Assembly (NCBI RefSeq): GCF_009883635.2
Contig: NZ_CP026115.2
Location: forward strand, 2,604,001 to 2,668,000
Reading direction: 5' to 3'
DNA: 64,000 nt
From: Pseudomonas putida
Lineage (GTDB): Bacteria; Pseudomonadota; Gammaproteobacteria; Pseudomonadales; Pseudomonadaceae
Shown here piece after piece: positions 19,181 to 51,290 of this stretch. The position numbers were made by a program, and so were the translations under genes. Position 1 is the stretch's first letter; every line of letters begins with the position of its first letter. Under the pieces are notes generated by a model. The model had not been told where the DNA came from. It did not search any database and saw only the letters and a program-made list of their open reading frames with translations.

Positions 19181-20719
19181 TCACGTCGTCAGCGTCCGCA
19201 GCAGGTTCTTGTAGTCCTCGCGGATGTCCGCGTCGGATTCCTTCAATTCGTTGATCTTGCGGCAGGCGTGCAGCACGGTGGTGTGGTCGCGGCCGCCAAA
19301 CATGTCACCGATTTCCGGCAGACTGTGGTTGGTCAGTTCCTTCGACAGTGCCATGGCTACCTGACGCGGGCGCGCAACGGAGCGCGAACGGCGTTTGGAC
19401 AACAGATCGGCGATCTTGATCTTGTAGTATTCAGCCACCGTGCGCTGGATGTTATCCACACTCACCAGCTTGTCCTGAAGCGCCAGCAGGTCCTTCAACG
19501 ACTCGCGAATCAGCTCGATGGTTATGTCACGGCCCATGAAGTGCGAGTGAGCGATCACCCGCTTCAGGGCGCCTTCGAGTTCACGTACGTTGGAGCGAAT
19601 ACGCTGGGCGATGAAGAACGCAGCATCATGCGGCAGCTCGACCTTGGCCTGGTCGGCCTTCTTCATCAGGATCGCCACGCGGGTTTCCAGTTCCGGCGGC
19701 TCGACAGCCACCGTCAGGCCCCAGCCGAAGCGCGACTTCAGGCGCTCTTCCAGGCCTTCGATTTCCTTCGGATAGCGGTCACTGGTGAGAATCACCTGCT
19801 GGCCGCCCTCGAGCAAGGCGTTGAAGGTGTGGAAGAACTCTTCCTGGGAACGCTCTTTACGGGCAAAGAACTGGATGTCGTCGATCAGCAGCGCATCGAC
19901 CGAGCGGTAGAAGCGCTTGAATTCGTTGATTGCGTTGAGCTGCAGCGCCTTGACCATGTCCGCGACGAAGCGCTCGGAATGCAGGTACACGACCTTGGCA
20001 TTCGGATTCTTCTTCAGCAGGTGGTTACCTACAGCATGCATCAGGTGGGTCTTACCCAGGCCCACACCACCATAAAGGAACAGTGGGTTGTAACCATGCT
20101 TGGGGTTGTCGGCGACCTGCCAGGCCGCAGCGCGGGCCAGCTGGTTCGACTTACCTTCGACAAAGGTCTCGAAGGTAAAGGTGCGGTTCAGATAGCTGGT
20201 GTGCTTGAGCGCGCCTTCCACCTGAACCGTGCGCTGCTCGGTACGGCTGCCAGCAACAGGCGCCGAAGTGCTGTCGCCCATGCCATCGAAGCTGTCACGC
20301 GATGCCGACTCAGCGGCTTCATTCACCTGCACCGGTTCGGCAACTGGCGCTTGAACCGGCTCGGCAACGGCAGCGGCCGCAGGCGCGGCGGCCTGTTGGG
20401 TCTGGCTGTGCGCAAGCGAAGCCGCAACTGCAGCACTGACGGGGGCATTGGGTGCAGCACGTGGAGCAGAGCTGCGGCGGCTGCCTATTAACAAGGAAAG
20501 GGCTGGCGCCATGCCGCTGCCGTTTTCACCCAACAGTTCGAGCAGACGGCCAAGGTACTTTTCATTCACCCAATCGAGCACGAAACGGTTAGGCGCATAG
20601 ACGCGCAACTCGTCGCCTTCGGCTTCGACCTGTAGCGGACGGATCCAGGTGTTGAATTGCTGGGCAGGCAGTTCATCGCGCAGAAGCTCCACGCACTGCT
20701 GCCAAAGTTCCACTGACAC
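19181..20719 (-). CDS. dnaA: Chromosomal replication initiator protein DnaA
   Basis: AAA+ initiator (512 aa) that binds DnaA boxes and opens oriC. Domain I covers about residues 1-85 ([25 protein letters not shown]), a low-complexity Ala/Pro/Gln linker follows, then the AAA+ domain with Walker [11 protein letters not shown] and Walker [11 protein letters not shown], and domain IV with the DNA-binding segment [19 protein letters not shown]. The start is the GTG at 20719 (GTG TCA GTG GAA), with AGGGGAT just upstream; a longer open frame upstream is not homologous. The adjacent DnaA boxes suggest autoregulation. Confidence 0.98.
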
Positions 20720-21213
20720 GGATATCCCCTGAGTTGAAAGCCGGATGAGGCAAAAACAAACCGCCATTGTACCGGTCGAGCGATCAGTTATCCACATGTG
20801 GAAACATTCAGAGCCATGACAAAACAGCCATTTAGCGGCAAAAACGTCTTCCAACCTCTGTGAATAAACCCTGTGGATAAGCGACCTTGAGGTCTATGCA
20901 CAACCCCGGGGTTAGCCCTGTTGATAACTCGCCTGTGGATAACGACCCTTTCTATCCACAGCCTTTCCGCACGTCCAACACAAGCGCAGCACCTGTTACC
21001 GACAAGGTTTCAAATCTCTGTACATCGCGTAATGCATGGGCTGCATCATGTTATCCACAGAAGGTTATCCACTTAAGATTTATAAGTTCTTCAGAAAAGC
21101 TTTTTATATCTCTCTTCTTTTTTTTTCGTTTTGTCGTCCGTCTGCCTGGCTGATCAACCCTCCCTGGCATCCAGCAGTCAGGGCGCCTTCTATAAGGAAA
21201 GGCTGGTTGGAAA
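20720..21213. other. oriC: Chromosomal replication origin (oriC), dnaA-rpmH intergenic region
   Basis: The intergenic region holds four perfect DnaA boxes (TTATCCACA or its complement) at 20788-20796, 20872-20880, 20934-20942 and 21051-21059. One-mismatch boxes lie at 20859-20867, 20919-20927, 20952-20960 and 21065-21073. A strongly AT-rich stretch at about 21074-21135, including a long T run, is the likely unwinding element. Genes on each side run away from it, and dnaA and rpmH flank it, as in the origin described for P. putida and P. aeruginosa. Confidence 0.9.
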
Positions 21214-21242
21214 TTGACCTATGGGCTTGCTTTCTCTAGAAT
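21214..21242 (+). promoter_or_regulatory. Sigma-70 promoter for rpmH-rnpA
   Basis: TTGACC at 21214-21219 and TAGAAT at 21237-21242 are separated by 17 nt, close to the sigma-70 consensus, and lie about 60 nt before the rpmH start. Confidence 0.7.
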
Positions 21243-21303
21243 CGCCGATCTCTTAAAAAGGGGGCCATTCCGGCCCGTAGTCGACAAACCAGGTAACAAC
21301 GCC

Positions 21304-21438
21304 ATGAAACGTACTTTCCAACCAAGCACCATCAAGCGCGCTCGCACCCACGGCTTCCGTGCCCGTATGGCTACCAAGAACGGCCGCGCTGTTCTGTCGC
21401 GTCGTCGTGCCAAAGGCCGTAAGCGTCTGGCCATTTGA
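21304..21438 (+). CDS. rpmH: 50S ribosomal protein L34
   Basis: Ribosomal protein of 44 aa with the canonical sequence start [19 protein letters not shown], extremely rich in Arg and Lys. It is the first gene of the rpmH-rnpA-yidD-yidC cluster and lies directly beside oriC. Confidence 0.98.
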
Positions 21439-21451
21439 TTTTTCGGCACAG

Positions 21452-21856
21452 GTGGTGAGTCAGGACTTCAGTCGGGAAAAGCGACTGCTTACACCCCGGC
21501 ACTTCAAAGCGGTCTTCGACTCCCCAACCGGCAAGGTTCCAGGGAAAAACCTGCTGATCCTTGCTCGCGAGAACGGCCTGGATCACCCGCGCCTCGGCCT
21601 GGTGATCGGCAAGAAGAGCGTCAAGCTCGCCGTTCAACGCAACCGCCTCAAGCGCTTGATGCGCGATTCCTTCCGGCTCAACCAGCAATTGCTGGGTGGC
21701 CTGGATATAGTGATCGTCGCGCGCAAGGGATTGGGTGAGATAGAAAACCCGGAATTGCACCAACATTTTGGCAAGCTCTGGAAACGCCTGGCGCGCAGCC
21801 GGCCAACTCCAGCGGCAAACGCCGATTCCGCAGGGGTAGACAGTCAAAATGCGTAA
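21452..21856 (+). CDS. rnpA: Ribonuclease P protein component
   Basis: Basic protein subunit (134 aa) of RNase P, which processes tRNA 5' ends with the RnpB RNA. The RNR motif region [21 protein letters not shown] is present. The start is uncertain: two adjacent GTG codons (21452 and 21455) fit the expected [19 protein letters not shown]-terminus, and the first is chosen. The longer open frame starting inside rpmH is unlikely. The 3' end overlaps yidD by 8 nt. Confidence 0.93.
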
Positions 21857-22094
21857 ACTGGCCCTCGTTCCGATCCAGTTTTACCGTTACGCCATCAGTC
21901 CCCTGATGGCCAACCACTGTCGTTTCTACCCCAGTTGCTCCTGTTACGCTCTTGAAGCCATTGAGAACCATGGTCTCTTGCGTGGCGGGTGGCTAGCCGT
22001 TCGTCGCCTGGGGCGTTGTCATCCGTGGAACGACGGCGGTTTCGATCCCGTTCCCCCCGCTCCTTCCTCCCGAACTTCTTCGATAGCCGAGTAA
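21849..22094 (+). CDS. yidD: Membrane protein insertion efficiency factor YidD
   Basis: Small membrane-associated protein (81 aa) with the conserved cysteine-rich core [19 protein letters not shown] and [14 protein letters not shown]. It sits between rnpA and yidC, its standard position, and helps YidC-dependent insertion. Overlaps rnpA by 8 nt. Confidence 0.95.
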
Positions 22095-22096
22095 TC

Positions 22097-23773
22097 ATGG
22101 ATATTAAACGCACGATCCTGATCGTCGCCCTGGCAATCGTGTCCTACGTCATGGTCCTCAAGTGGAACGAGGACTACGGCCAGGCTGCCCTGCCGACTCA
22201 GAATACTGCTGCCAGCACTGTTGCCCCGGCCTTGCCGGATGGTGTGCCGGCCGGTACCGCCAGCGCCGATGTGCCGAGCGCCAATGCCGAATCCAGCCCT
22301 GCCGAACTGGCTCCGGCCGCGGTCAGCAAGGATCTGATCCGGATCAAGACCGATGTCCTGGAACTGGCTATCGATCCGGTCGGTGGTGACATCGTCCAGC
22401 TGAACCTGCCGAAGTACCCGCGCCGTCAGGACCATCCGGACATTCCGTTCCAGCTGTTCGACAATGGTGGCGAGCGCATCTACCTGGCACAGAGCGGCCT
22501 GACCGGCGCCAACGGTCCGGATGCCCGTTCGTCGGGTCGCCCGCTGTATGCTGCCGAGCAGAAGAGCTATCAGCTGGCTGATGGCCAGGACCAACTGGTC
22601 GTCGACCTCAAGTTCAGCGACAACGGCGTCAACTACATCAAGCGCTTCAGCTTCAAGCGCGGTGAGTACGACCTGACCGTCAGCTACCTGATCGACAACC
22701 AGAGCGGCCAGGCCTGGAACGGCAACATGTTTGCCCAGCTCAAGCGTGACGCCAGTTCCGATCCATCGTCGAGCACCGCCACCGGCACCGCGACCTACCT
22801 GGGCGCCGCCATGTGGACAGCTTCCGAGCCTTACAAAAAGGTCTCGATGAAGGACATCGACAAAGGTAGTTTGAAAGAAAATGTGTCGGGCGGCTGGGTT
22901 GCCTGGCTGCAGCACTACTTCGTGACCGCTTGGATTCCGGCCAAGTCGGATAACAATGTTGTCCAGACCCGCAAGGACAGCCAGGGTAACTACATCATCG
23001 GCTACACCGGCCCGGCCCTCAGCGTTCCGGCTGGCGGCAAGGTTGAAACCAGCGCCATGCTGTATGCCGGTCCAAAGATCCAGTCCAAGCTGAAAGAGTT
23101 GTCCCCAGGCCTGGAACTGACCGTCGACTACGGCTTCCTGTGGTTCATCGCCCAGCCGATCTTCTGGCTGCTGCAACATATCCACAGCCTGCTGGGCAAC
23201 TGGGGCTGGTCGATCATCGTGCTGACCATGCTCATCAAGGGCCTGTTCTTCCCGCTGTCGGCTGCCAGCTACCGCTCGATGGCGCGCATGCGTGCCGTGG
23301 CGCCGAAGCTCGCCGCACTGAAGGAACGCTTCGGTGACGATCGCCAGAAGATGTCCCAGGCGATGATGGAGCTTTACAAGAAAGAGAAGATCAACCCGCT
23401 GGGCGGCTGCTTGCCGATCCTGGTGCAGATGCCGGTGTTCCTGTCCCTGTACTGGGTACTGCTGGAAAGCGTCGAAATGCGCCAGGCTCCGTGGATGCTG
23501 TGGATCACCGACCTGTCGATCAAGGATCCGTTCTTCATCCTGCCGATCATCATGGGCGCCACCATGTTCATCCAGCAGCGTCTGAACCCGACGCCTCCGG
23601 ATCCGATGCAGGCCAAGGTGATGAAAATGATGCCGATCATCTTCACCTTCTTCTTCCTGTGGTTCCCGGCTGGTCTGGTGCTGTACTGGGTTGTGAACAA
23701 CTGCCTGTCGATCACTCAGCAGTGGTACATCACCCGCCGTATCGAAGCAGCCACCAAAAAAGCTGCTGCTTGA
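22097..23773 (+). CDS. yidC: Membrane protein insertase YidC
   Basis: Inner-membrane insertase (558 aa) that folds and inserts membrane proteins, alone or with Sec. An N-terminal membrane helix (TILIVALAIVSYVMVLKW) is followed by the large periplasmic domain of Gram-negative YidC and the conserved insertase core from about residue 365, including GGCLPILVQMPVFLSLYWVL. The ATG at 22097 gives MDIKRTILIVALAIV; an upstream extension overlaps yidD in another frame and is rejected. A strong terminator follows. Confidence 0.98.
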   Translation: MDIKRTILIVALAIVSYVMVLKWNEDYGQAALPTQNTAASTVAPALPDGVPAGTASADVPSANAESSPAELAPAAVSKDLIRIKTDVLELAIDPVGGDIVQLNLPKYPRRQDHPDIPFQLFDNGGERIYLAQSGLTGANGPDARSSGRPLYAAEQKSYQLADGQDQLVVDLKFSDNGVNYIKRFSFKRGEYDLTVSYLIDNQSGQAWNGNMFAQLKRDASSDPSSSTATGTATYLGAAMWTASEPYKKVSMKDIDKGSLKENVSGGWVAWLQHYFVTAWIPAKSDNNVVQTRKDSQGNYIIGYTGPALSVPAGGKVETSAMLYAGPKIQSKLKELSPGLELTVDYGFLWFIAQPIFWLLQHIHSLLGNWGWSIIVLTMLIKGLFFPLSAASYRSMARMRAVAPKLAALKERFGDDRQKMSQAMMELYKKEKINPLGGCLPILVQMPVFLSLYWVLLESVEMRQAPWMLWITDLSIKDPFFILPIIMGATMFIQQRLNPTPPDPMQAKVMKMMPIIFTFFFLWFPAGLVLYWVVNNCLSITQQWYITRRIEAATKKAAA

Positions 23774-23798
23774 CGGGCTACTGCGCTAGCCTGTGAAT

Positions 23799-23824
23799 AA
23801 AAACGCCCCCTCGGGGGCGTTTTT
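23799..23824 (+). terminator. Intrinsic terminator after yidC
   Basis: The stem ACGCCCCC / GGGGGCGT with a 2-nt loop is followed by a T run, 26 nt after the yidC stop; mnmE begins about 36 nt later. Confidence 0.87.
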
Positions 23825-23859
23825 GCTATCTGTCGTTTTTGTCGTAGAGGCTTTCGAGC

Positions 23860-25230
23860 ATGAACACTGTGCGTGAAACCATCGCCGCCATCGCCACTGC
23901 CCAGGGCCGCGGAGGCGTCGGCATCGTGAGGTTGTCCGGGCCATTGGCGAGCAAGGCGGGGCAGCTGATTACCGGCCGAACGCTGACGCCCCGCCATGCC
24001 CACTACGGGCCATTCCGCGACGAGGATGGCCTGGTGCTGGATGAAGGCATCGCGTTGTACTTCCCAGGTCCCAACTCGTTCACGGGTGAGGATGTACTCG
24101 AGCTGCAGGGGCATGGCGGCCCTGTGGTCCTGGATATGCTGCTGCAGCGGTGTGTACAAGTGGGCTGCCGCCTGGCGCGTCCGGGCGAGTTCAGCGAGCG
24201 TGCGTTCCTCAACGACAAGCTCGACCTGGCCCAGGCCGAAGCCATTGCTGACCTGATTGAAGCGAGCTCCAGCCAGGCTGCGCGCAATGCCTTGCGCTCG
24301 CTGCAGGGGGAGTTCTCCAAGCGTGTGCACGGCCTGACGGAGGCGTTGATTGCCCTGCGCATCTACGTCGAGGCCGCGATCGACTTTCCTGAAGAGGAAA
24401 TCGACTTCCTTGCCGATGGCCATGTGTTGTCGATGCTCGATGCGGTGCGCAGCGAGTTATCCACCGTGCAGCGCGAGGCCGGGCAGGGCGCCTTGCTGCG
24501 TGACGGCATGACGGTGGTCATAGCCGGCCGGCCAAATGCAGGCAAATCGAGCCTGCTGAACCAGCTGGCGGGGCGTGAGGCGGCAATCGTTACCGACATC
24601 GCAGGCACCACCCGGGACATCCTGCGCGAACATATCCACATCGACGGCATGCCACTGCATGTGGTCGATACTGCCGGCCTGCGGGATACCGACGACCATG
24701 TGGAAAAGATCGGCGTGGAGCGCGCGCTGAAGGCCATTGGCGAGGCTGATCGAGTGCTGCTGGTGGTCGACTCCACCGCCCCCGAGGCTAGTGATCCGTT
24801 CGCCTTGTGGCCTGAGTTTCTCGACCAGCGGCCAGACCCGGGCAAGGTAACGCTGATTCGCAACAAAGCCGATCTCAGCGGTGAGCGGGTAGCCCTGGAA
24901 CAATGCGACGATGGCCACGTGACCATCACCCTGAGCGCCAAAGGGGACGATCAGGGGCTACAACTGCTGCGCGATCACCTCAAGGCCTGCATGGGTTATG
25001 AACAGACCGCCGAGAGCGGTTTCAGCGCCCGCCGGCGCCACCTCGATGCCTTGCGCCAGGCCAGTTCTCACCTGGAACATGGTCGCGCACAGTTGACTCT
25101 GGCTGGAGCGGGTGAACTGCTGGCCGAGGACTTGCGTCAGGCGCAGCAGGCGCTCGGTGAGATCACCGGTGCGTTCAGTTCCGATGACCTGCTGGGGCGG
25201 ATCTTCTCCAGTTTCTGCATCGGCAAGTAA
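23860..25230 (+). CDS. mnmE: tRNA modification GTPase MnmE
   Basis: GTPase (456 aa, also called TrmE) that with MnmG modifies the wobble uridine of certain tRNAs. The N-terminal formyl-THF-binding domain starts [27 protein letters not shown]. The G domain has [14 protein letters not shown] (G1), DIAGTTRD (G2), DTAGLRD (G3) and NKADL (G4). The protein ends with CIGK, the family's essential C-terminal cysteine motif. Its partner mnmG is the next gene but is separated by a long origin-like region. Confidence 0.98.
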
Positions 25231-25252
25231 TCCACAGCTGGCTAAAACCAAG

Positions 25253-25279
25253 GCCGCTCCTCCGGGAGCGGCTTTTTTT
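25253..25279 (+). terminator. Intrinsic terminator after mnmE
   Basis: The stem GCCGCTCC / GGAGCGGC with a 4-nt loop precedes a run of seven T, 22 nt after the mnmE stop. Confidence 0.85.
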
Positions 25280-25325
25280 GCCTGCAATTTATCCACTCGT
25301 CGGATCTTTCAAATACCACACCGAG

Positions 25326-25360
25326 CCCTGTAGGAGCGGCTTTAGCCGCTAAGAGGCCCG
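25326..25360. repeat. REP-like palindromic element
   Basis: The sequence CTGTAGGAGCGGCTTTAGCC and its continuation CGCTAAGAGGCCCG resemble the 35-bp P. putida REP consensus (TAGGAGCGGG-tttacCCGCGAAGAGGCCGG) with several changes. The inner arms AGCGGCT / AGCCGCT pair. Only one copy is seen in this window. Confidence 0.6.
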
Positions 25361-25784
25361 ATCACGCATACGCAAATCCATCCACAGACCCAAAACCCTG
25401 TTCAGGAGACCTGTGGAAAACCCGCCTTCAGCTCCGTTGATAAGCAGGCTTTTTTTCTGAGGACAAATCCACCTGTGGGTAAACAGGCATTTAATCCACA
25501 GGCTAAATGGCGTTATCCATAACCCTCATGGTGGGTAAGCCACAGGGTTCAATTTCTCTGTACACCATGTAAATATTAGCCTACAGAACGTTATCCACAG
25601 AAAGGGCTGTGCATAAGAATAAAGATAAAAACAAAGCTTTTTTAAATTTCTTCTCTTTGATTTCTGTTGTCTGCCACTCATCCACAGACTGGTCAAAATT
25701 TGCTCAGACGGTTTCTTTAGAGGGGGTGAAGTCCCTATACTTGTCCGCTTACCTTCTCTATTCGCAAAAACAGGCACGAGGTGC
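25361..25784. other. Second DnaA-box-rich, AT-rich region upstream of mnmG
   Basis: Contains one perfect DnaA box at 25591-25599 and one-mismatch boxes at 25412-25420, 25474-25482, 25492-25500, 25513-25521, 25608-25616 and 25678-25686 (two more at 25228-25236 and 25289-25297 lie just to the left). An AT-rich tract at about 25609-25675 follows the perfect box. A TATACT at 25736-25741 may serve the mnmG promoter. No gene is seen. Function as a second origin or a DnaA reservoir is inference. Confidence 0.6.
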
Positions 25785-25787
25785 GTG

Positions 25788-27680
25788 GTGGATTTCCCTT
25801 CCCGTTTTGAAGTGATCGTCATCGGCGGCGGCCATGCCGGTACCGAGGCTGCGCTTGCGTCAGCACGCATGGGTGTGAAAACCCTGCTGTTGACCCACAA
25901 CGTGGAAACCCTCGGTCACATGAGTTGCAACCCCGCCATCGGCGGTATTGGTAAAAGCCATCTGGTCAAAGAGATCGATGCACTCGGCGGCGCCATGGCG
26001 CTGGCCACCGACAAGAGCGGCATCCAGTTCCGCATCCTGAACAACCGCAAGGGCCCGGCCGTACGCGCCACCCGTGCGCAAGCCGACCGCGCCATCTACA
26101 AGGCGGTGGTACGCGAGATCCTGGAAAACCAGCCGAACCTGTGGATATTCCAGCAGTCCTGTGACGACTTGATCGTCGAACAGGACCAGGTCAAAGGCGT
26201 GGTGACCCAGATGGGTCTGCGCTTCTTCGCCGAATCCGTGGTGCTGACCACCGGTACTTTCCTCGGTGGCCTTATCCACATCGGTCTGCAGAACCATTCC
26301 GGTGGTCGCGCCGGTGATCCGCCTTCGATCGCCCTGGCTCACCGCATGCGTGAACTGCCGCTTCGCGTCGGCCGCCTGAAAACCGGTACTCCTCCGCGTA
26401 TCGATGGGCGTTCGGTCGACTTTTCGGTCATGACCGAGCAGCCAGGCGACACGCCGATCCCGGTGATGTCGTTCATGGGCAATGCCGAGATGCACCCGCG
26501 CCAGGTGAGCTGCTGGATTACTCACACCAACGCCCGGACCCACGAGATCATTGCCTCGAACCTTGACCGTTCGCCCATGTACTCGGGGGTGATCGAAGGT
26601 GTCGGCCCGCGCTATTGCCCGTCGATCGAAGACAAGATCCACCGCTTCGCCGACAAGGAAAGCCACCAGGTGTTCATCGAGCCGGAAGGCCTGACCACCC
26701 ACGAGCTGTACCCCAACGGTATTTCCACTTCGCTGCCGTTCGATGTGCAGCTGGAGCTTGTGCGCTCGATCCGCGGTATGGAAAACGCCCATATCGTTCG
26801 CCCGGGCTACGCCATCGAGTACGACTACTTCGACCCGCGTGACCTGAAGTACAGCCTCGAGACCAAGGTCATCGGTGGGCTGTTCTTCGCCGGCCAGATC
26901 AACGGCACCACCGGCTACGAAGAAGCCGGCGCCCAGGGCCTGCTGGCCGGTACCAACGCCGCGCTGCGTGCGCAAGGCCGCGAAAGCTGGTGCCCGCGCC
27001 GCGACGAGGCGTACATCGGCGTACTGGTCGACGACCTGATTACTTTGGGTACCCAGGAGCCGTATCGCATGTTCACTTCGCGCGCCGAGTACCGGCTGAT
27101 CCTGCGTGAAGACAACGCTGACCTGCGCCTGACCGAGAAAGGTCGCGAGCTCGGCCTGATCGACGATGATCGCTGGGCGGCGTTCTGTGCCAAGCGCGAC
27201 GGCATCGAGCGGGAAGAGCAGCGCCTGAAGTCGACCTGGGTGCGCCCGAACACCGAGCAAGGCCACGCCATTGTGGATAAGTTCGGCACCCCGCTGGCCC
27301 ACGAGTACAGCCTGCTCAACCTGCTGGCCCGTCCAGAGATCGACTATGCCGGGCTGATCGAAGCGACCGGCGGTGCAGAAATCGATCCACAGGTTGCCGA
27401 ACAGGTCGAGATCAAGACCAAGTACGCCGGTTACATCGACCGCCAGCAGGACGAAATCGCCCGCCTGCGCGCCAGTGAAGACACCCGCCTGCCTGTGGAT
27501 ATCGACTACACCACGATTTCCGGGCTTTCGAAGGAAATCCAGGGCAAGCTCGGCCAGACCCGTCCAGAGACCCTGGGCCAGGCTTCGCGCATCCCCGGCG
27601 TTACCCCGGCGGCGATTTCCCTGTTGCTGATTCATCTGAAAAAACGCGGCGCTGGCCGCGAATTGGAGCAAAGCGCTTGA
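25788..27680 (+). CDS. mnmG: tRNA uridine-5-carboxymethylaminomethyl modification enzyme MnmG
   Basis: FAD-dependent enzyme (630 aa, GidA) that pairs with MnmE to modify wobble uridine. The N-terminal FAD-binding motif [21 protein letters not shown], the [26 protein letters not shown] segment and [21 protein letters not shown] are all canonical. Two tandem GTG codons exist at 25785 and 25788; GAGG at 25778-25781 is better spaced for 25788, giving [15 protein letters not shown]. The last bases overlap the rsmG TTG start. Confidence 0.97.
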
Positions 27681-41949: not shown

Positions 41950-42031
41950 ACACCTTATTTCTGGCAATGTTTGCTCAACCGCAACCTTTGAACGATGACG
42001 CGGGATCAGTCGCTGAGGGGCCAACCCATCC

Positions 42032-42946
42032 ATGCTGTTGCGTATCCAACCTGATGAATCTTTGCGCTCATATGTTGACCGCAATTTGCTCGTGAATTTT
42101 ATGGACTGGAGGGTAGACAGGTTACGATGGCTTTCTGAAGGGGAGATTACTCACCAAGCAGTTAAGGTGATCGCCTCAACGATGGGTTGGCAAGGATGCT
42201 ATGGCTTCAACCGCTTGCTGCACGAACACACTCAATTGCCCCTGCAGTTTGTTATCAGGGATACCCGAGATGCCAGTTATTCTCGAACGGCGTATCTCAA
42301 ACCCCGAATGGCGATTACTAATTCCGACTTGCACGCCTACTGCCCGGAATGCGTCAGGCAGGACGTGCAGGATTTGGGCTTTTCCTACTGGCGACGAAAT
42401 TTCCCTGATCATGTGAGCGTGTGTGCCACACACAATGTGGTGCTGCTGTCCACTTGCCCATATTGCGATCAACCTTTCTCATCAAAAGGCCACAATCTCG
42501 ATGTGATGTGGAGAAAGTGTTCTGGGCGACACCTCGGTAACGCAGAGAGCGTAATGAACTTGGATGAAGATGCTCTCAAACATGCTCGCTTCGTAGAAGC
42601 GCTATGCGCTTATGAATTCTCCATTTCAATCCATTCTGCAGTGGCCATTCTCTCCGATAAGTTGCGCAGCCTCAAGAAACTGACGAAGCGGATGAAATCT
42701 GAGCGGACAGCCATGATTGAGTATCTCGATCGGATTTCAAATAATTTGGAAGAAAAAAGATTTGAGAGTCCTGTTGTAAAGACGGAATTTTTCCCCGAAG
42801 AAATTTTGAAAATCGTGGTTTATGCCTATGAGACTTTCGATGAATTTGTTGTTGATTTGTACGAGTATGATAAAGATTTGATTCCTATTGAGTCTCTATG
42901 GCGAAATTATGGTAATGGTAGGTATGCGACCACTTGTCGGGAATAG
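42032..42946 (+). CDS. tniQ: Short TniQ-family transposition targeting protein
   Basis: TniQ/TnsD-family protein of 304 aa, much shorter than TnsD (about 500 aa). The N-terminal TniQ region reads MLLRIQPDESLRSYVDRNLL, with FNRLLHEHTQLPLQFV; a zinc-finger pattern follows with C104, C107, C131 and H134 (YCPECVRQ...CATHNVVLL) and a further CPYC at 142-145. The C-terminal 150 residues are helical and AT-rich in codon use, with no recognised DNA-binding domain. GAGGGG lies 11 nt before the ATG. It is probably a target-selection adaptor bridging TnsC to a site; which target is unknown. Confidence 0.8.
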   Translation: MLLRIQPDESLRSYVDRNLLVNFMDWRVDRLRWLSEGEITHQAVKVIASTMGWQGCYGFNRLLHEHTQLPLQFVIRDTRDASYSRTAYLKPRMAITNSDLHAYCPECVRQDVQDLGFSYWRRNFPDHVSVCATHNVVLLSTCPYCDQPFSSKGHNLDVMWRKCSGRHLGNAESVMNLDEDALKHARFVEALCAYEFSISIHSAVAILSDKLRSLKKLTKRMKSERTAMIEYLDRISNNLEEKRFESPVVKTEFFPEEILKIVVYAYETFDEFVVDLYEYDKDLIPIESLWRNYGNGRYATTCRE

Positions 42947-42973
42947 CTGACTGAGCGTTGCTGCACTTGCATG

Positions 42974-44608
42974 TTAAGTCTTGGTCGATTGGGTAACAAT
43001 TTCTAGTAGGTTTCGTGCTTCTGGGTAGCGATTCCTTTTTTCTAGGCACCGATGCAGTGTGGGCACCAACGCGAAAATATGACTAGCTCGAACAGGGAAA
43101 TTCGTGGCCGAGTATTTCAGTCTTTGAATGCTCAATTCAATTGATTCGCATAGTTGCCTGTCGCGAGCACTCCAATCGATTTTTTGATTGTTGCCTACGC
43201 GACCACTTGGCATCCGCTTAGTTTGAGCCATCAACCAGTCATTATCGTTCCGGTATAGCCATTGATAGACCTTGGGGAGCATTGATCTCAGGCTTTTCGG
43301 ACTGGCGTCTGGATTCATGCCGATGGCGCTAACCCACTCCGCACGGTGATTGTGTAGCAGTAGCTCCCTGCGCTGAGTTGTCCAAGCAGCCATCAGTAGA
43401 GGATCAGCACTTAGGATCCTGTTTATTGTAGAAACCGAAACGTCATATCGTTCCGCTATGGAATGTTTCTCCACTCCTTTGCCCAAGCAACCCAAGATTT
43501 GTTCCCGAAGCTCGGGTTTCAGCTTTTTAGGCTTCAGTTTTTTGAAGACTCTATCCCTGATTTCCTGACCTTTAAATCGGTGTGCTGCTTTATCGCCTAC
43601 TGCTCGTCTTCCGTGGTCTGGAGACTGTACTGGGGTTTCCTGATCCCCTGGAGACTGAAATCTTTTTAACGCACATAAAAACGGCGCAAACTCGCCGAAT
43701 ATACAGGTGATCAAAATCAGATGTTTGAGCGGATGGGAGTAAACGCGCGGTGTACGGGTCAGACTCTGTATAAAAGTTTCAGCTCTCTTTGGAGTGGTCG
43801 GAAGCGAGGCCAGTGGAAGATACGGTTGCAGTTGTGAAGCGAACGAAGCTAGGTCTGCTTGGGCATCAAAGCATGCTTCTGTATTGACTGAGAGGCGACG
43901 AATAGCTTCGTTATAAGCAGCCGTGACATTTTCTGGACGAAATTGCTCAGAAATGCCTAGCTTGGCTAACTCAATCACTGAGTGTCCTAAACGCTTGAGG
44001 GTTTGTACCACTGTCGGGCATACGGGCTGCTCTGCAACGCTCGCTATTAGGTGCTCGGCAGGTAATACCCAGTGCGCAGAGTCCGACCACTGCCGGTTGG
44101 CCGAGCAAATCCTGATGAGAGTTCCGTGCTTAGGGCATAACGTGACGCCTGGATACTGATGGGACAGGTGCCAGTAGGCGACCCCATGATTGATACGGTC
44201 TTCCCTTAAACATTCGAGGCATGCTTTCAATGGGTGCTCTGCGCCAAAGCGACCGGTCACCAGACCCAGGCGATATTTTAAGGTGCCCAAAGAATTGTTT
44301 GAAACTGTATGAAAGACGTCGTCAATTCTTTCCTTGGATTGAAAAGGAAAAAACAACGGCAATATCGTATGTTCTGTAATGATGTTGAATGGGCTTCCCC
44401 ATACTTCTTTGGCTTTTTGGGGCAAAGAGTTTAGTCTGCTAGGAAAGTCATGCTGCACACTACTTGATCCCTCACCAAATAGCCATGCAGTGGTGCTAGC
44501 CTTAGTAACGTGGCACATAAAACGATGCTGACGACAACAAATACTGAAAAAGGTCTCATCCGGTAGCCATCGAACGACAGGGACAGATGCATTTGCAGAA
44601 TCAGCCAT
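42974..44608 (-). CDS. tnsD: TnsD-like attTn7 targeting protein
   Basis: Full-length TniQ-family target selector (544 aa from the ATG at 44608; upstream TTG/GTG starts would add up to four residues). It resembles Tn7 TnsD along its length: LPDETFFSICCR at the N-terminus, EHTILPLFFPFQSKERIDD, a zinc finger CLECLREDRINHGVAYWH...CPKHGTL, and the C-terminal VYQWLYRNDNDWL and KIDWSARDRQLCESIE. A helix-turn-helix-like stretch, KHSIAERYDVSVSTINRILS, is near residue 390. It should recognise the 3' end of glmS and recruit TnsC. Unlike in Tn7 it is transcribed opposite to tnsABC and lies ahead of tnsA. Confidence 0.88.
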   Translation of the reverse strand: MADSANASVPVVRWLPDETFFSICCRQHRFMCHVTKASTTAWLFGEGSSSVQHDFPSRLNSLPQKAKEVWGSPFNIITEHTILPLFFPFQSKERIDDVFHTVSNNSLGTLKYRLGLVTGRFGAEHPLKACLECLREDRINHGVAYWHLSHQYPGVTLCPKHGTLIRICSANRQWSDSAHWVLPAEHLIASVAEQPVCPTVVQTLKRLGHSVIELAKLGISEQFRPENVTAAYNEAIRRLSVNTEACFDAQADLASFASQLQPYLPLASLPTTPKRAETFIQSLTRTPRVYSHPLKHLILITCIFGEFAPFLCALKRFQSPGDQETPVQSPDHGRRAVGDKAAHRFKGQEIRDRVFKKLKPKKLKPELREQILGCLGKGVEKHSIAERYDVSVSTINRILSADPLLMAAWTTQRRELLLHNHRAEWVSAIGMNPDASPKSLRSMLPKVYQWLYRNDNDWLMAQTKRMPSGRVGNNQKIDWSARDRQLCESIELSIQRLKYSATNFPVRASHIFALVPTLHRCLEKRNRYPEARNLLEIVTQSTKT

Positions 44609-45237
44609 TTCCCTCACCAAACGCTTGTCGTTTTCAACATTTTATTTGATTGGGGCTAAACCCTTAAATTATCAGTTGAGATAAGGGGGTGAAGATATAT
44701 ATCCGATGGGTGTGAGGCGCACGGTTGATCTAGATAATGACCCAAGCTGGACAATTTTGAATCCAGTCGCGACCCAGAGAGGGATGACTTTTCAGTTGTC
44801 ACCCTGTTAACCACGGCGGTAACATACCCTGCTAAGCGAAGCGCTTTAAAATGTGCACACAGATACGTGTACACCCAGCGAATCCATTGCAGATAGCTGC
44901 TAACTATGTCCTAGATTCTTAACACGTATGAATAATAAGGAAGTATTGAATGAAATCTGACTAGTTAATTAGCGCTAGAATTCAGATAGACAAAGGCCCA
45001 AGTGCGACCTTGGGCCTCTGTGGATAAGTCAGAATTTAGCGACCTGACCTTTCCATTGTCTATTCCGAACATGCGGGACGTCAAGTCCTGCAGGGCTTCG
45101 TTCATCCACAAGAAGGTGAGCGTTATCCACAACCCGCACTCTTGGGTACGCCCGGGAGGCAAGGGCTATAGGGGCATCCAGCAAATTATCCCCAGGCTGG
45201 ATGACGATCCTAGGTCCGTAGACATTGGACTGTATTG
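44609..45237. promoter_or_regulatory. Divergent control region between tnsD and tnsA
   Basis: 629 bp without a supported gene. Visible elements are two near-palindromic octamers GTGCACAC and GTGTACAC at 44853-44860 and 44867-44874, an 8-bp stem AGGCCCAA / TTGGGCCT at 44994-45017, a TTATCCACA at 45123-45131, and an inverted repeat CCAGC / GCTGG at 45178-45200, about 38 nt before tnsA. Weak promoter-like TATAGG at 45167-45172. Likely holds the tnsABC and tnsD promoters and operators. Confidence 0.4.
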
Positions 45238-46200
45238 ATGACTTTGCAGGAGAGATTTGCCCTCATCAGGAGCCGACAAGCTCACTTCGCGTGGGGCGAT
45301 ATCTACACGCCTTCGATTTTAGCGGTTCCACGAGAAGCCCCTAAGGGCTCTCGTATCAGCAGAATGAATAGCCGGAAGCTCGGCCGTGCGATTCACTCGC
45401 TGTCCACCCCAGAAGCGGTGTTCGCACAGCTCGCGCTCTTCCATCCTCAGCTGCTCGATATTCACGAGCAGAAGATGCTGTGGCCATATCACGCCCCGCA
45501 TCCATTGCACGGGCATCCACTCACCAAAGGACATTTTTCTCATCCTGTCACTGGGACGATGGAAATTGCCAAGCAAATTGGCTTCAAGCATCACCAGGTG
45601 GTGATTACCACTAAAGCTGGTAGCCGACAGAGAATGCCCTTTCCCTATCAGGGGGACCTTTTACTGTATTTGATGGGTTCAGATGGGAAACCCTACGCGG
45701 TCAATTGGACGGTGAAGGATCAAGCTCATGCCTTCAGCGAGAGGCGCTACTCAGCAGCCAAGACCCCTAATCAGCAAAAAAAGGACCGTGATCATGCTGA
45801 GCTACGCACAGCCCTAGAGCAACTGCATTACGCAAGCGGCGGTATCAGGACCGTGCAAATGTCTTTGGATCGTCTGGACCCGATCGTCATGGGCAATCTC
45901 GATCTGCTATTTCCGATGCATGGCTTGCCGCTGACCCACGACCCCGAGCTGCTCAGGGAGTTTAGCGCTGAGATTGAGGGCGCTGTGCATGCTGGGGCCT
46001 TGATCCACCCCATCATTTACCGGTATGCAGCCCGATGGGGTAAGCGTGACCAGTTTATTGCGAAGGTCTACCAAGACATCTGGGACCGAAAGCTGCCAGT
46101 AAATTTCTTCAAGCCGATTCTGATCGACCATCCTCTCGATACCGACGGTGGTGATCTGCTGGCAGCCTACGGCAAATTTTTCTTGGAGATTGAGCCGTGA
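45238..46200 (+). CDS. tnsA: Transposon Tn7-like transposition protein TnsA (endonuclease)
   Basis: Restriction-enzyme-like nuclease (320 aa) that cuts the 5' ends of the element while TnsB cuts the 3' ends, allowing cut-and-paste movement. Candidate PD-(D/E)XK residues are Glu59 in STPEAVFAQLALF, Asp140 in YQGDLLLYLM and Lys160 in NWTVKDQ, in the order of TnsA E63, D114 and K132. It is somewhat longer than Tn7 TnsA (273 aa). The ATG at 45238 follows a TTG at 45235; neither has a strong ribosome binding site. The stop overlaps the tnsB GTG start. Confidence 0.85.
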   Translation: MTLQERFALIRSRQAHFAWGDIYTPSILAVPREAPKGSRISRMNSRKLGRAIHSLSTPEAVFAQLALFHPQLLDIHEQKMLWPYHAPHPLHGHPLTKGHFSHPVTGTMEIAKQIGFKHHQVVITTKAGSRQRMPFPYQGDLLLYLMGSDGKPYAVNWTVKDQAHAFSERRYSAAKTPNQQKKDRDHAELRTALEQLHYASGGIRTVQMSLDRLDPIVMGNLDLLFPMHGLPLTHDPELLREFSAEIEGAVHAGALIHPIIYRYAARWGKRDQFIAKVYQDIWDRKLPVNFFKPILIDHPLDTDGGDLLAAYGKFFLEIEP

Positions 46201-48206
46201 TCACGGGCGCTAGGTTATTTGCGCCTGAAGGTTATCGGAGCCTTGTCAAAGGCCACTATTACCATTTCCTGAACAGTGATGCGGTCCACAACCGGGTGCG
46301 CTTGGTGGAGTTCAGTGATCTAGCGAAAGACGTGCGCACCACCTTGATCACCCTCACAAGGTTCGAGTTCGAAGAAGCGCTCGAAGCGGGTGCGCTGCTG
46401 GCGTCAGGGGAGACGGACAAATTTCCGCCATGGCTGGAACCGATTAAGGGGATCGCAATTTCAGATCGTGAAACGAAGCGGGTTTCTGCTAAGGAAACCT
46501 ACGACCAAAAGGTCAACCGCCGTTTTCTGGCTATCTCAGGCCTGATGGTTCGTCTCCAGGAGGTTCTAGCCAGTGACGATCCGGACGCTGTAATTAACGC
46601 TCATGCCAAAAGCCAGTCGCCTCAGCAAAATGCAGCTCGCTTGAGGTTGTGGTTCTACACTTACATTACTTTTGGACAAAACAAGTGGGCTCTCATGCCT
46701 CCCCTGCACCGCATCGGGAGGTGGGACAGGGAGGGGCCGGGGAAATTACGCAGGCTGGGCCGGCCATCACCCAATGGCAAAGAGTGGGGTTACCGGGCCG
46801 ATAGCGCCATGAGGGAAAGAATCCTTTCTGCGTATCTTAGGTTCCGTTCCGCTGACAAAACATATAGTCAAGTTTACCGAAAAATCCTTACAGAGGAATT
46901 TGGTTGCGTTTCCGTTGAACGAAATGGAGTAGCATTTTTCATCAATCGTAAAGGGCACCCATTTCCAACTATTGACCAAGTGCGTTACTGCATCGAACAA
47001 CAAGTTAGCGCTAAAGAGAAATCTATTGGCGTAAGAGGTAAACAAAAGACCCGCGACCAGAGCGGCAGTTTGGGCAGTTTCTCAGAACGCTTGACGAATC
47101 TAAATCAGCAGGTCGAGTTTGATGGTTACTACATAGTTGAAAAACTTTCGGGCCTGACAGAGGGTAGCCCCGTTGACGGATTTTGCGTCGTTCGTGCCGT
47201 GTGTGGATTGTCCGGAATGGTGGTTGGCATTGGATTTGCCGAAGGTAAAGAAACCAAAGAAGCTTATCGGATGTGTCTGTTTTCCATGGCTGTCGACAAA
47301 GTATGGTTTTGTGGGCTTTTCGGAGTAACCATCAAACCGGACTGGTGGCCCTGCGAAGGCTTGGCAGGTGGGCTGGTGTTTGATCGAGGTCCTGCAGCAG
47401 CCCTGGACACGGAGCCTGAGATCCACTGGCTAGGCACACTTGAAAATACGCCAGTTTTTTCTGGCCAGTCTAAAGCTACGGTTGAGTCATCGCACCCGCG
47501 AGCAAAATCCGACCTCGATCAACCCACCTATGTTCATAGCACACTGAATTTTGTCCAAATGGCCCGCAGGGAGATTCACCAAGTCCTGAAAGACAACCGG
47601 TCGTCTGACGCAAGTGGCCGCATGGAAACCGAAATGTATTGGTGCGGAATAAAGCCCACCCCGCTGGGTATCTGGAATTACTGGGACAGCCGCTTCCGTA
47701 ATTCTGCAATCGGGATGCAGCAAGAGGTTGCCATAAAGAGCTTCCTGTCTGTGCACCCGGCCGTTGTACGTCAAGACGCAGTCTATCTGTACGGGCGCAA
47801 GTATAGGTCTGTTGATTTGATCAATACCGGGATATTTGATCGAGTTGCTAGGAGCAGCGTTATTGAAGTTGATGTATATGTACTGACTATGTGCGTTCGG
47901 CATATATGGATTGAGGTAGGAGGCACACTGTTCGAACTGGACTTTGTAACGACGCAAAGGACCGTTGACGGTGATCGGGACATATCATTACGTGATCTTC
48001 AGTCACTAGATGCCTTAAGGCGAAAATCTCAAACCTTGCTTCGTAATGAGATGCCGGCAATTCATCAATTTCACGATGATAGATTCAAAGAAGATACCGG
48101 TGAAGAGTGTAAAGGTGGCGTGAGAAGAATTGGTCGACCACCTAAATCGGCATCTGCGCAGCGAGATACAGATGACTATGATCGATTCCGAGGTAAAGCC
48201 AAATGA
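46197..48206 (+). CDS. tnsB: Transposon Tn7-like transposition protein TnsB (DDE transposase)
   Basis: Main transposase (669 aa; GTG start overlapping the tnsA TGA) that binds element ends and does 3'-end cleavage and strand transfer. The likely catalytic triad is Asp309 (VEFDGYY), Asp396 (LVFDRGP) and Glu430 (KATVESSHPR); spacings of 87 and 34 residues match TnsB of Tn7. An N-terminal DNA-binding part covers about residues 1-290. The C-terminal tail is basic and probably contacts TnsC. Codon use in the middle is more AT-rich than in the host genes. Confidence 0.92.
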   Translation: MITGARLFAPEGYRSLVKGHYYHFLNSDAVHNRVRLVEFSDLAKDVRTTLITLTRFEFEEALEAGALLASGETDKFPPWLEPIKGIAISDRETKRVSAKETYDQKVNRRFLAISGLMVRLQEVLASDDPDAVINAHAKSQSPQQNAARLRLWFYTYITFGQNKWALMPPLHRIGRWDREGPGKLRRLGRPSPNGKEWGYRADSAMRERILSAYLRFRSADKTYSQVYRKILTEEFGCVSVERNGVAFFINRKGHPFPTIDQVRYCIEQQVSAKEKSIGVRGKQKTRDQSGSLGSFSERLTNLNQQVEFDGYYIVEKLSGLTEGSPVDGFCVVRAVCGLSGMVVGIGFAEGKETKEAYRMCLFSMAVDKVWFCGLFGVTIKPDWWPCEGLAGGLVFDRGPAAALDTEPEIHWLGTLENTPVFSGQSKATVESSHPRAKSDLDQPTYVHSTLNFVQMARREIHQVLKDNRSSDASGRMETEMYWCGIKPTPLGIWNYWDSRFRNSAIGMQQEVAIKSFLSVHPAVVRQDAVYLYGRKYRSVDLINTGIFDRVARSSVIEVDVYVLTMCVRHIWIEVGGTLFELDFVTTQRTVDGDRDISLRDLQSLDALRRKSQTLLRNEMPAIHQFHDDRFKEDTGEECKGGVRRIGRPPKSASAQRDTDDYDRFRGKAK

Positions 48207-49534
48207 ATGAGGCCATTGCGAGTTGGTTCGACGGCTGCCAAACGGCTGATCAGGTCCGCCAGATCATCACGCGTCGACCTGAGCCATTGGAAAGTCTGTA
48301 CGAAATTGAACCTCGGTTGGCGGCAGAGGTGCTGTCTCAAGCATTGCGTGAATCGTTCATTCCCAACGCATTTACGATTGAGTTCATCCAGGAGATGGTG
48401 GGGCGCGCAGCGCTGCATGCGCGAGCATTGTTCTCTTCTGAGCGCGAGTACGCCCGAGGGCTCTATGAAGCACCTGCAGTCGATGCTGTGCCGGTGTGTT
48501 TTACAGGGCTTGCAGGGGTTGGGAAGAGCCAGACCATTGCTGCGCTGCGCAAGGTTCTGCCTGGCCCCGTTGATCTGTCCTGCGATCACTTCCAGGGTGA
48601 GCTACCGTTGCGGTCGCATTGGTATGCAAGCGCCCGAGGTACCACCAATGCTAAGGCCCTTCTTCGAGAGTTCGTTGAGTTGCCTCTGTCGCGACTGACC
48701 GTTGCTGAGCTGCTGAGTGAATGCCGGCGTAGGGCGAATCGTGATGGGGTATCGTTAGTCATCCTGGATGAAATGCAGTACATCCAAAAGGGGCTTGGTG
48801 CAGCGAAGGTTACCGATATCCTCTTGAACATGGCTGGTATCGGTCCGCCAATGGTCTACGTGTGCAATTACAGCTTGGGTCACAAGTTGTTTGAGAGAAA
48901 CAATGAGGATCAGCAGCGCTTGCTGACGGACCCAAGAATCATGCTTCCCGATGAGCCTGGCAGTTCCGACTGGAAAGCTTTCATTGATGAATGTGTTCGC
49001 GTGGGCAATGGCGCGATTCGCGGTAATCAGGGTGAATTGGCAAGGGAAATTTACCGTTGCACCTTCGGTATCAAGCGCCTGGCGGTGGAGTTGTTGAAGC
49101 AGGCGTACATTGAGTGCCGCAGTGCAGGCCGTCATGCGGCCTCCCTTCAAGACATCGGCCATGCTTACCGCTCAGCGGCTTACACGTCCAGTGCCAAACA
49201 GGTCGAACACCTTCAAAAATTGGCTCTGGGTGGTCGGGTGTCCAAACAGCATCCAGACCTGCGGTGTCCGTTTGACCTGCCAGCCGCGTTCACGTCCAAC
49301 GTAGTGAAATTTGCGCGAGCTGAACGGCAGGACCGAGTCACCCAGAAGGTTTTCGACTCATCGCTCACTGCGTCGGAACGATCTGTAAAAAAGCAACTTG
49401 ATGCCTCAGCGAATGCTCTGCAGAAGCCGACTGCGCGCCCGCGGCGGACTCCGGTTGAGGAGCTCTCCGAGGAAGAGCAGGCCAAAGCTTTCTTTGCCTT
49501 GATGGAGGACGACAAGGACCCCAAACCCAAGTGA
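48203..49534 (+). CDS. tnsC: Transposon Tn7-like AAA+ regulator TnsC
   Basis: AAA+ ATPase (443 aa) that links the target selector (TnsD or TniQ) to TnsAB and gives target immunity. Walker A is GLAGVGKS at residues 102-109 and Walker B VSLVILDE at 183-190 with YNY-type sensor region VYVCNYSLGHKLFE. It starts with an ATGA overlap with tnsB. The C-terminal tail is rich in Lys, Arg and Glu and may contact TnsAB. It is followed by a large palindrome. Confidence 0.9.
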   Translation: MNEAIASWFDGCQTADQVRQIITRRPEPLESLYEIEPRLAAEVLSQALRESFIPNAFTIEFIQEMVGRAALHARALFSSEREYARGLYEAPAVDAVPVCFTGLAGVGKSQTIAALRKVLPGPVDLSCDHFQGELPLRSHWYASARGTTNAKALLREFVELPLSRLTVAELLSECRRRANRDGVSLVILDEMQYIQKGLGAAKVTDILLNMAGIGPPMVYVCNYSLGHKLFERNNEDQQRLLTDPRIMLPDEPGSSDWKAFIDECVRVGNGAIRGNQGELAREIYRCTFGIKRLAVELLKQAYIECRSAGRHAASLQDIGHAYRSAAYTSSAKQVEHLQKLALGGRVSKQHPDLRCPFDLPAAFTSNVVKFARAERQDRVTQKVFDSSLTASERSVKKQLDASANALQKPTARPRRTPVEELSEEEQAKAFFALMEDDKDPKPK

Positions 49535-49575
49535 TGGTGTGGCGAAGAATTCCGTTCGCGGGCCCTATGATTGCT

Positions 49576-49644
49576 GGCGTGTAAACCTATTTTTTTCACT
49601 GTTAACCAGAGTGGTTTACAGTGAAAAAAACAGGTTTACACGCC
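49576..49644. repeat. 69-bp near-perfect palindrome downstream of tnsC
   Basis: Two 33-nt arms (49576-49608 and 49612-49644) are inverted copies with only two mismatches, separated by GAG. Each arm runs GGCGTGTAAACCT, a 7-T tract, then CACTGT and AACCA. It begins 42 nt after the tnsC stop and ends 154 nt before the next gene. It could work as a hairpin terminator, a protein-binding palindrome or a scar of back-to-back inverted repeats. No identity is assigned. Confidence 0.85.
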
Positions 49645-49798
49645 TGAGTTAGCGAGGGGCAGGTACACCAGGATAGAGCACCTGAGCTCGGATGCATCTC
49701 CGACGCCGCTGAAATGTGCTATCACGTGCCAGTACAAGCATGTCCAGATTCGCGTCATGCATTGGCGTTAGACAGTTAACTCCAGGTACAAAGATCTT

Positions 49799-51097
49799 AT
49801 GAGCACACCAATTACGCTGTCTGTGGGTAGCCTCGATCTCACATACAACACTGGCTATATGGGCATGGATCACGGGATGCTCTATCAAGAGTCCGACCGC
49901 CAGTACCGTCGGCACGAGGGCATCGACTACGACTACGCTCATAGCCCTGAAAGTCTGGAGCAAATGGAGCTGTGTTTTTGCCGGACACTTGGTTCGATGG
50001 TGTCACGGTTGGAGCTGCTCGGATACACATTGGCGGCGGTGAGGTCGGAATACGAAAATCAGGTCGTGCTCGACAGAGACCAGTTCGAGGAATACCTGCC
50101 AGGTGAGCGTCGATCCGACCGTTTGACTTTCGATCAATTTATCGACTTCATCAAAGCGTACGCATTGCGAGACCTAAAAAGCGACTATGTCGCCAGCTAC
50201 GATTCCGATCATGCACAGGGCCGGGGCCGCTTTGCGGCTGATCCAGCGGCATCTCTACTCCCGACGGGAGTGTTTGATCGAGACATCGGAGGCTACTCCG
50301 AGCGCAGCCATTTCGGCTCAATGTTAGGATTTCTGAGCCCATATGCAACTCTGCGAATCCTTGCCGAAAACCCCGCTAATCTAGGTGAAGATGTCGTCTG
50401 GGATTACGGCAATTTTGTGGATGCAGGATGGGCTAAAAATGAGGATTTCATTGGGAACGCACGTCGGACCCAGACCTATTTGATAGCGACTGAAGGCACT
50501 TCTGATACCCACATTCTGAAGCGGGGTCTGGCGCTGCTCCGCCCGGACATCGAGGATTTTTTTCGATTCATTGACATCGAGGAGCGTCACCCATTTTCCG
50601 GTACAGGTAATCTGTCCAAGTTCGCCGAGGGACTGGTCAAAATTGATGTTCACAATCGCGTGGTCTTCCTGTTCGATAACGACGCCGAAGGAGTGGATAC
50701 CTATAAAAATCTACTCAAACGCTTTCAATTCCCAGTGAACATGAAAGCTATGGTTCTTCCTGACTTGGACGAGCTGCGCGAGTTTCCGGCGAAAGGCCCG
50801 TGTGGTGTTGCCAACGCTGACATCAACGGCTGCGCGGCCGCTATCGAGTGCTATCTCGATCTCAATCTTAAGGGGCGACCCCCAGCGCAGGTGACCTGGA
50901 CGAATTACAAGGAGTCGTTAGGTATTTATCAGGGCGCCCTCGATTTCAAAGATAGCTACGCAAAGGCGTTTTATGAAACCACTCAGGAGGATGTTGAATC
51001 AGGTGTGTATGACGCGAGTAAGCTCCGATCCGTGATAGCGGCGCTTCTTGAGGAATGCACTGGTTTGGCTGCTGCGATGCTCTATTCGAAGTCCTAA
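49799..51097 (+). CDS. HEPN/Toprim-type protein, putative defence function
   Basis: 432-aa protein with an N-terminal region like the HEPN/Toprim N-terminal domain (starting SVGSLDLTYNTGYMGMDHGMLYQESDRQ) and a C-terminal Toprim-like fold. In the latter the motif YLIATEGTSDTHILKR gives the glutamate and VVFLFDNDAEGVDTYKNL the DxD, the pattern of metal-binding Toprim nucleases and primases. It lies where tnsD/tnsE sit in Tn7 but shows no TnsE similarity to my reading. HEPN and Toprim domains occur in RNA- or DNA-cleaving anti-phage systems, so a defence role as transposon cargo is inference. The family call is moderate. Confidence 0.6.
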   Translation: MSTPITLSVGSLDLTYNTGYMGMDHGMLYQESDRQYRRHEGIDYDYAHSPESLEQMELCFCRTLGSMVSRLELLGYTLAAVRSEYENQVVLDRDQFEEYLPGERRSDRLTFDQFIDFIKAYALRDLKSDYVASYDSDHAQGRGRFAADPAASLLPTGVFDRDIGGYSERSHFGSMLGFLSPYATLRILAENPANLGEDVVWDYGNFVDAGWAKNEDFIGNARRTQTYLIATEGTSDTHILKRGLALLRPDIEDFFRFIDIEERHPFSGTGNLSKFAEGLVKIDVHNRVVFLFDNDAEGVDTYKNLLKRFQFPVNMKAMVLPDLDELREFPAKGPCGVANADINGCAAAIECYLDLNLKGRPPAQVTWTNYKESLGIYQGALDFKDSYAKAFYETTQEDVESGVYDASKLRSVIAALLEECTGLAAAMLYSKS

Positions 51098-51290
51098 ACC
51101 TCAATAGCCTCTCGGCGAAGGCGCTTCCACCTAACGCGGACCGAGATGATTTCTGGCCCCTACCATCCGCTCGTCGCTACCTCTTGGAGATGGCCATCCA
51201 TCCAATGCCCATGGGGTACAGCATGGCTAGAATGGTATAGTCTCTCATTTATTTGCAGAACAGCCGCAGGAAGCCGCTGGGAGATTTCAC

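Follow-up and report, generated by a model that had tools for sequence, protein, structure and literature searches.

A candidate second DnaA-type origin module upstream of mnmG in Pseudomonas putida and its conservation in the Pseudomonadaceae

Replication starts at mnmG in Escherichia coli but between dnaA and rpmH in Pseudomonas, and this difference is a long-standing question. The subject here is a stretch of DNA from Pseudomonas putida, a window of 64 kb (G000:C1:2604001-2668000, in a one-contig genome of 6.19 Mb). The window is a Pseudomonas-type origin region in which, besides the expected oriC in the dnaA-rpmH gap (module 1), the mnmE-mnmG gap carries a second origin-like module (module 2). 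An initial annotation had noted a block shared by the two gaps and had suggested an ancient duplication or shared selection. The paralogous pair of origin modules is real and well conserved and, as far as checked, new in its details and distribution; no description of the exact shared geometry or of the two-site distribution was found in the literature, judged by titles and opening lines.

Layout and relationship of the two modules

The modules are 245 bp each and lie about 4.5 kb apart. Module 1, taken from the first DnaA box to the middle of the DNA unwinding element, occupies 20872..21116 (+ strand; modelled from 21 aligned genus copies), and module 2 occupies 25412..25656 (+ strand). Each contains four DnaA boxes oriented - - + +, and their spacings are the same in both (62, 18 and 99 bp). 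In module 1, boxes 1 and 2 (20872..20880 and 20934..20942, - strand) are exact, box 3 (20952..20960, + strand) has one mismatch, and the last, R1-like box (21051..21059, + strand) is exact. In module 2, boxes 1 and 2 (25412..25420 and 25474..25482, - strand) and box 3 (25492..25500, + strand) have one mismatch each, and the R1-like box (25591..25599, + strand) is again exact. A shared element, TCTCTGTACA (21015..21024 and 25555..25564, + strand), begins 36 bp 5′ of the last box in both modules and is mostly conserved in the genus; like GTTATCCACAGAA and AAGCTTTTT, it has two + strand copies in the 64 kb, one per gap. The sequence GTTGATAA has three + strand copies in the window (at 20920, 25436 and 57032) and stands outside the shared register, because its distance to the last box differs between the gaps.

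The 48-bp block of the initial annotation (21015-21062 and 25555-25602) matches at 35 of 48 positions without gaps, exactly as had been counted by hand, while the next best places in the window reach 26/48 on the + strand and 28/48 on the - strand. When the whole of module 1 is slid along the + strand of the window, the best match (129/245, gapless) falls at exactly 25412; the runner-up place reaches 89, and the window averages 60.4 (sd 6.7). The likeness between the gaps is therefore real and reaches well past the 48-bp block.

Profile searches, in which 18 candidate places per genome were scored after a first look, gave the same picture. A profile built from module 1 only finds module 2 with E = 1.6e-21, and one built from module 2 only finds module 1 with E = 1.2e-23. 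The other matches listed in the 6.19-Mb genome are partial, opposite-strand ones at module 2 itself; among the matches listed, each module is the sole further independent locus of the other's profile. Across 33 genomes the gapless identity of the modules is 0.509 in register and drops to 0.21-0.32 when one is shifted by 1-15 bp. For positions outside the four boxes the figure is 0.448 in those 33 genomes, compared with 0.25 for randomly paired non-box positions (maximum 0.31 in 300 trials), so that a shared block lacking conservation outside the boxes is excluded. At non-box positions conserved to at least 80% in both modules, the same base is found at 49 of 73. In-register identity, identity outside the boxes and the conservation of both modules together give the proposed ancient duplication good support; judged by their sequences, the modules reflect either shared ancestry or strict shared constraint. 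Concerted evolution was considered and rejected, as the identity within a genome (0.509) hardly differs from that across genomes (0.506, permutation p 0.16). Modules from one genome thus resemble each other no more than modules from different genomes do, so the copies split before the genus and show no sign of converting each other.

Both modules end in an AT-rich tract, which is predicted to unwind. Ranked by nearest-neighbour values across the 64 kb, the tract of module 2 (25613..25662, + strand) is the least stable 50-mer of the window and that of module 1 (21073..21122, + strand) the second least stable; both begin 22 bp past the first base of their own R1 box. For the oriC of P. aeruginosa, PMC5109545 describes an opening, detected with permanganate, 18-46 bp downstream of box R1 upon depletion of DciA, which is presented there as a helicase-loading factor. 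A broadly conserved unwinding system is described in PMC8287927. With its extremely unstable tract at a fixed distance from R1, module 2 thus has an origin part that would be superfluous in a simple cluster of binding sites.

Conservation within the genus

The genus sample drew on 43 of 59 mnmG-bearing genomes and consists of 44 loci, since G025 contributes two; the locus of the window is among them. On the rpmH side 32 loci remained, as rpmH was not recognised in 11 of the 44 and a further locus was too short; a protein search recovered three more (35). Alignment of both regions across these Pseudomonas genomes, the check that the initial annotation had proposed, showed both modules to be conserved across the genus. 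The four-box template has at most 5 of 36 bases mismatched 5′ of mnmG in all 44 stretches, and 5′ of rpmH in 32/32, or 34/35 after the protein search; the sole misfit (L032) has 182 bp instead of 179 between its first box and R1. The best of 116 coding controls still had 14 mismatches.

In module 2 (44 loci), boxes 1-2 have a pairwise identity of 0.68, the two segments after them 0.62 and 0.63, and R1 with the tract 0.77; the corresponding values for module 1 (22 loci) are 0.72, 0.64, 0.58 and 0.67. The 120-bp upstream flank has an identity of 0.33 for module 2, which is near random, and 0.51 for module 1. Mean column identity is 75% for module 2 (23 chosen genus sequences) and 77% for oriC (21 chosen). 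According to the pairwise identities, module 2 is therefore kept about as strictly as oriC, and it is under strong purifying conservation. The distance between the starts of mnmE and mnmG is 5-9 kb in 14 of 43 genus loci (L008, L015 and L020 among them) and about 1.9 kb elsewhere, which indicates that several kb were inserted between mnmE and the mnmG module. In those 14 loci the module stays 5′ of mnmG.

Distribution in the family, order and class

In 20 other genomes of the Pseudomonadaceae a fit was defined as an R1 box accompanied by two or more partners at the expected distances, with slips of one base tolerated; here and in the order, places absent from the contigs were counted as not available. 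A fit was found at mnmG in 16/20, in the dnaA-rpmH gap in 14 of the 18 examined, and at both in 12/18. The four genomes without a fit at mnmG are G183, G197, G199 and G188; in G188 the module is nevertheless present, with two mismatches in R1. The spacer from rnpA to mnmG ranges from 3.8 to 10.7 kb in the family. In some members mnmG stands apart from the rpmH operon, as in G199 (L064/L300), without a module at mnmG, and in G173 (L046), with one; in G173 the mnmG copy is kept though rnpA lies outside the 12 kb fetched 5′ of mnmG.

For the rest of the order, exact box pairs were counted in 40 of 54 genomes taken regardless of pattern, one of which was too short at mnmG. A spacing of exactly 99 bp between two + strand boxes is seen at mnmG in 7/39 loci, from 6 families, and at rpmH in 0/29; when the same boxes were placed at random 2000 times, the count averaged 0.22 and never exceeded 3. 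For - + pairs, an exact spacing of 117 bp was found in 3/39 loci at mnmG and 0/29 at rpmH, and one of 179 bp in 2/39 and 2/29, respectively. Order-wide, the box geometry is thus commoner at mnmG than at dnaA-rpmH. It is found at mnmG in, for example, gamma proteobacterium HdN1 and Larsenimonas rhizosphaerae and, among the matches listed, in G233, G370 and G297 of family f148. The 99-bp pair lies in the dnaA-rpmH gap in Oceanospirillum linum and Marinospirillum, 5′ of rpmH in O. sanctuarii (dnaA being outside the stretch), and also on the dnaA-rpmH side in family f119 (G204, G245, G306) and in G277. In genus g187 of f148 (G349, G269), the matches listed include a copy next to dnaA with two mismatches, and a single box pair fits at mnmG. 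As some members have the geometry at mnmG and others at dnaA, the place of the module has varied within the order. The idea that the mnmG copy alone is old was weakened by the 99-bp pairs found at dnaA-rpmH in several order members.

Outside the Pseudomonadaceae, 7 genomes have the geometry at both places (G206, G357, G379, G297, G269, G349, G302); the set examined for this included 20 order genomes chosen for carrying the 99-bp pattern. Within the Pseudomonadaceae, 11 of 14 same-genome pairs are more alike than the shuffle maximum, and this family is the only sampled group in which sequence-related copies are common at both places. A class-wide search at E <=0.01 matched the module-2 model in 28 of 114 genomes and the module-1 model in 20 of 114, the studied genome being in both; the matches in other genomes are all far weaker than in the studied one, and match locations were checked for part of them. 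A pattern scan of genome contigs yielded at least 117 stretches. In six loci related to Balneolia/Balneolaceae (L150, L164, L185, L196, L203, L208), two exact DnaA boxes 99 bp apart lie near the dnaA start; this spacing may have been adopted there independently. Sequences resembling sites for integration host factor (IHF), about 20-30 bp 5′ of R1, seem to recur in several families among the matches listed, as judged by eye against the IHF consensus.

Comparison with known origins

According to PMC3056050, PMC5109545 and PMC3642087, the characterised Pseudomonas oriC adjoins dnaA, and PMC3056050 places it between rpmH and dnaA; Yee and Smith 1990 is cited for it in PMC3056050 and PMC5109545. 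This oriC is module 1. Module 2 has the four-box geometry, the R1 box, TCTCTGTACA and an AT-rich tract in common with it, but differs in its location 5′ of mnmG, its weaker outer boxes (one mismatch each) and the sequence of its tract. For origins of the Pseudomonadales and Pseudomonadaceae, the gammaBOriS work (PMC7174414) lists as typical TATCCACAGAA and a motif centred on AAGCTT, and both modules agree with this. A published P. aeruginosa oriC primer had a match in none of 398 family genomes.

The initial annotation was correct in stating that the oriC of E. coli adjoins mnmG (NC_000913 compared with the window). Like module 2, the oriC of E. coli K-12 lies directly 5′ of mnmG, with the polarity outermost box, R1, AT-rich tract, mnmG, and the distance from the outermost inward box to R1 is 180 bp there and 179 bp here. 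The inner boxes and the upstream neighbour are different, and the sequences resemble each other only weakly: the module-1 profile scores 18.7 bits on the E. coli region and the module-2 profile 6.4 bits, the latter on the opposite strand. An E. coli-type oriC carries many GATC sites for SeqA/Dam control, whereas GATC does not occur in either module (25412-25662 for module 2). Given the weak likeness and the lack of GATC, module 2 shares place and layout with E. coli-type origins rather than belonging to them.

As in the bipartite origins of Bacillus subtilis and Helicobacter pylori, two clusters of DnaA boxes are separated here by at least one gene. In bipartite origins, however, the unwinding tract is described for one subregion only (PMC4285127), whereas both modules here carry a tract of their own, both extreme in the window, and the spacer length varies in the family.

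Possible functions of the mnmG module

The initial annotation had also proposed that mnmG may have a second initiation or DnaA-regulatory region; an initiation region there is plausible from the anatomy. We consider module 2 to be rather likely a complete second DnaA-type origin module, an old paralogue of oriC that serves as a subordinate site of DnaA loading and unwinding and as a reserve or accessory origin. DnaA would bind its four boxes and form a complex of about 180 bp; growing onward past R1, the last of the boxes, this complex would reach the AT-rich tract and open it as at oriC. In wild-type cells module 1 would be the dominant start site, and module 2 would have been retained as a subordinate loading and unwinding site, usable as a reserve or accessory origin. 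With just one of the modules expected to act as the start site, the other, module 2, would be kept as a reserve or for control.

As a control site, module 2 could be a sink or inactivation site for DnaA that damps re-initiation near the origin and never opens, a role like that of datA in E. coli; sites of this kind are box clusters with an IHF site that promote the hydrolysis of DnaA-ATP. The nine boxes with at most one mismatch in the 700 bp 5′ of mnmG would suit such a role, as would the closeness to oriC, which means that the site is doubled right after initiation, and the report of a non-essential second origin in P. aeruginosa (PMC4403523). A sink, however, could do without the window's least stable tract and its fixed distance from R1, and R1 with its tract is the best conserved part of module 2; this role seems unlikely. 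Control of a promoter, in which DnaA would link the transcription of mnmG with the cell cycle and the resemblance to oriC would come from the same DnaA complex acting as a transcription switch, seems quite improbable. A terminator-like hairpin (25250..25275, + strand, consensus match only) ends mnmE, so that mnmG probably needs its own promoter, and the module follows mnmG when neighbours change; yet a simple consensus scan of 25200-25800 gave no sigma-70-like site, the gidA promoter of E. coli is described in PMC5835720 as being without DnaA boxes, and a 180-bp four-box geometry with an unstable tract exceeds what a switch needs.

That module 2 is a decaying, useless relic of the ancestral gammaproteobacterial oriC is very improbable: although its place and polarity are those of the E. 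coli oriC and it is missing from a few family members, its column identity (75%) is close to that of oriC (77%), and its conserved borders are sharp with an upstream flank near random, so that conservation counts strongly against decay. A further proposal is that the Pseudomonadaceae carry two live paralogous origins, an ancestral one linked to mnmG and a copy on the dnaA side that took over, with module 2 still firing in some cells or conditions; this is unlikely.

Several results weigh against a second origin module at mnmG. In G183, G197 and G199 there is no box with at most one mismatch in the 800 bp 5′ of mnmG, which makes module 2 dispensable in some lineages; in their dnaA-rpmH gaps, G199 has the full set of boxes, G183 a partial one and G197 none that fit. 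Outside the family, the likeness between the mnmG and rpmH sides exceeds the shuffle maximum in only two of the seven genomes with both (G269 and G302). For runs of NAN triplets beside the box (the DnaA-trio), the median is 7 in module 2, a value that shuffles also reach at their 95% point, and no run is seen in module 1. In P. aeruginosa, two autonomously replicating elements were tested in vitro and only one was essential, as stated in PMC4403523, where the other is regarded as perhaps a once-functional origin and the work is credited to Smith 1991 and Jiang 2006. As proposed here, two origin elements lie on one Pseudomonas chromosome, one of them non-essential in that species; the second element, which may have a link to gidA, could be the mnmG module or a different one. 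Finally, the genes between the modules weakly resemble the leading strand of a fork from module 1: the GC skew at fourfold sites of rnpA, yidC and mnmE together is -0.05, and the reference values in 464 kb of the genome are -0.022 for the leading strand (122 genes) and -0.145 for the lagging strand (115 genes). The noise in this measure can be seen from genes that are leading under either model (dnaA and dnaN, -0.065; mnmG to parB, -0.089), and from dnaA genus-wide (-0.103). The cumulative GC skew over the 464 kb has its minimum at 40976, too coarse a measure to separate sites 4.5 kb apart.

Gene setting

The genes of the window are named here from their translations and order, which we take to be dnaN and dnaA on the left, and rpmH, rnpA, yidD, yidC, mnmE, mnmG, rsmG, parA and parB on the right. 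Those bordering the two gaps are dnaA (19181..20719, - strand; open reading frame (ORF) list and translation), rpmH (21304..21438, + strand; translated from the sequence), mnmE (23860..25230, + strand; ORF list) and mnmG, or gidA (25785..27680, + strand; ORF list and translation). A promoter-like site lies ahead of rpmH (21214..21242, + strand; consensus match only). The window as a whole has 52 DnaA boxes with at most one mismatch, compared with 6.9 expected. Its G+C content is about 0.47-0.53 at 42000-53000 and about 0.6 elsewhere, which suggests that this stretch is acquired DNA; the skew minimum at about 40976 sits beside it, some 15-20 kb to the right of both modules.

Significance

Matching and similarly conserved modules at both places, in a genome whose relatives in other families show the geometry at one place or the other, make the relocation of an origin directly testable, and two paralogous unwinding modules in one cell would let the rules of origin dominance be dissected. 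If both origins were live, the Pseudomonadaceae would show an origin moving by copy first and switch later, with the old one kept in reserve, whereas elsewhere in the order each family would have ended up with a single one of the two sites.

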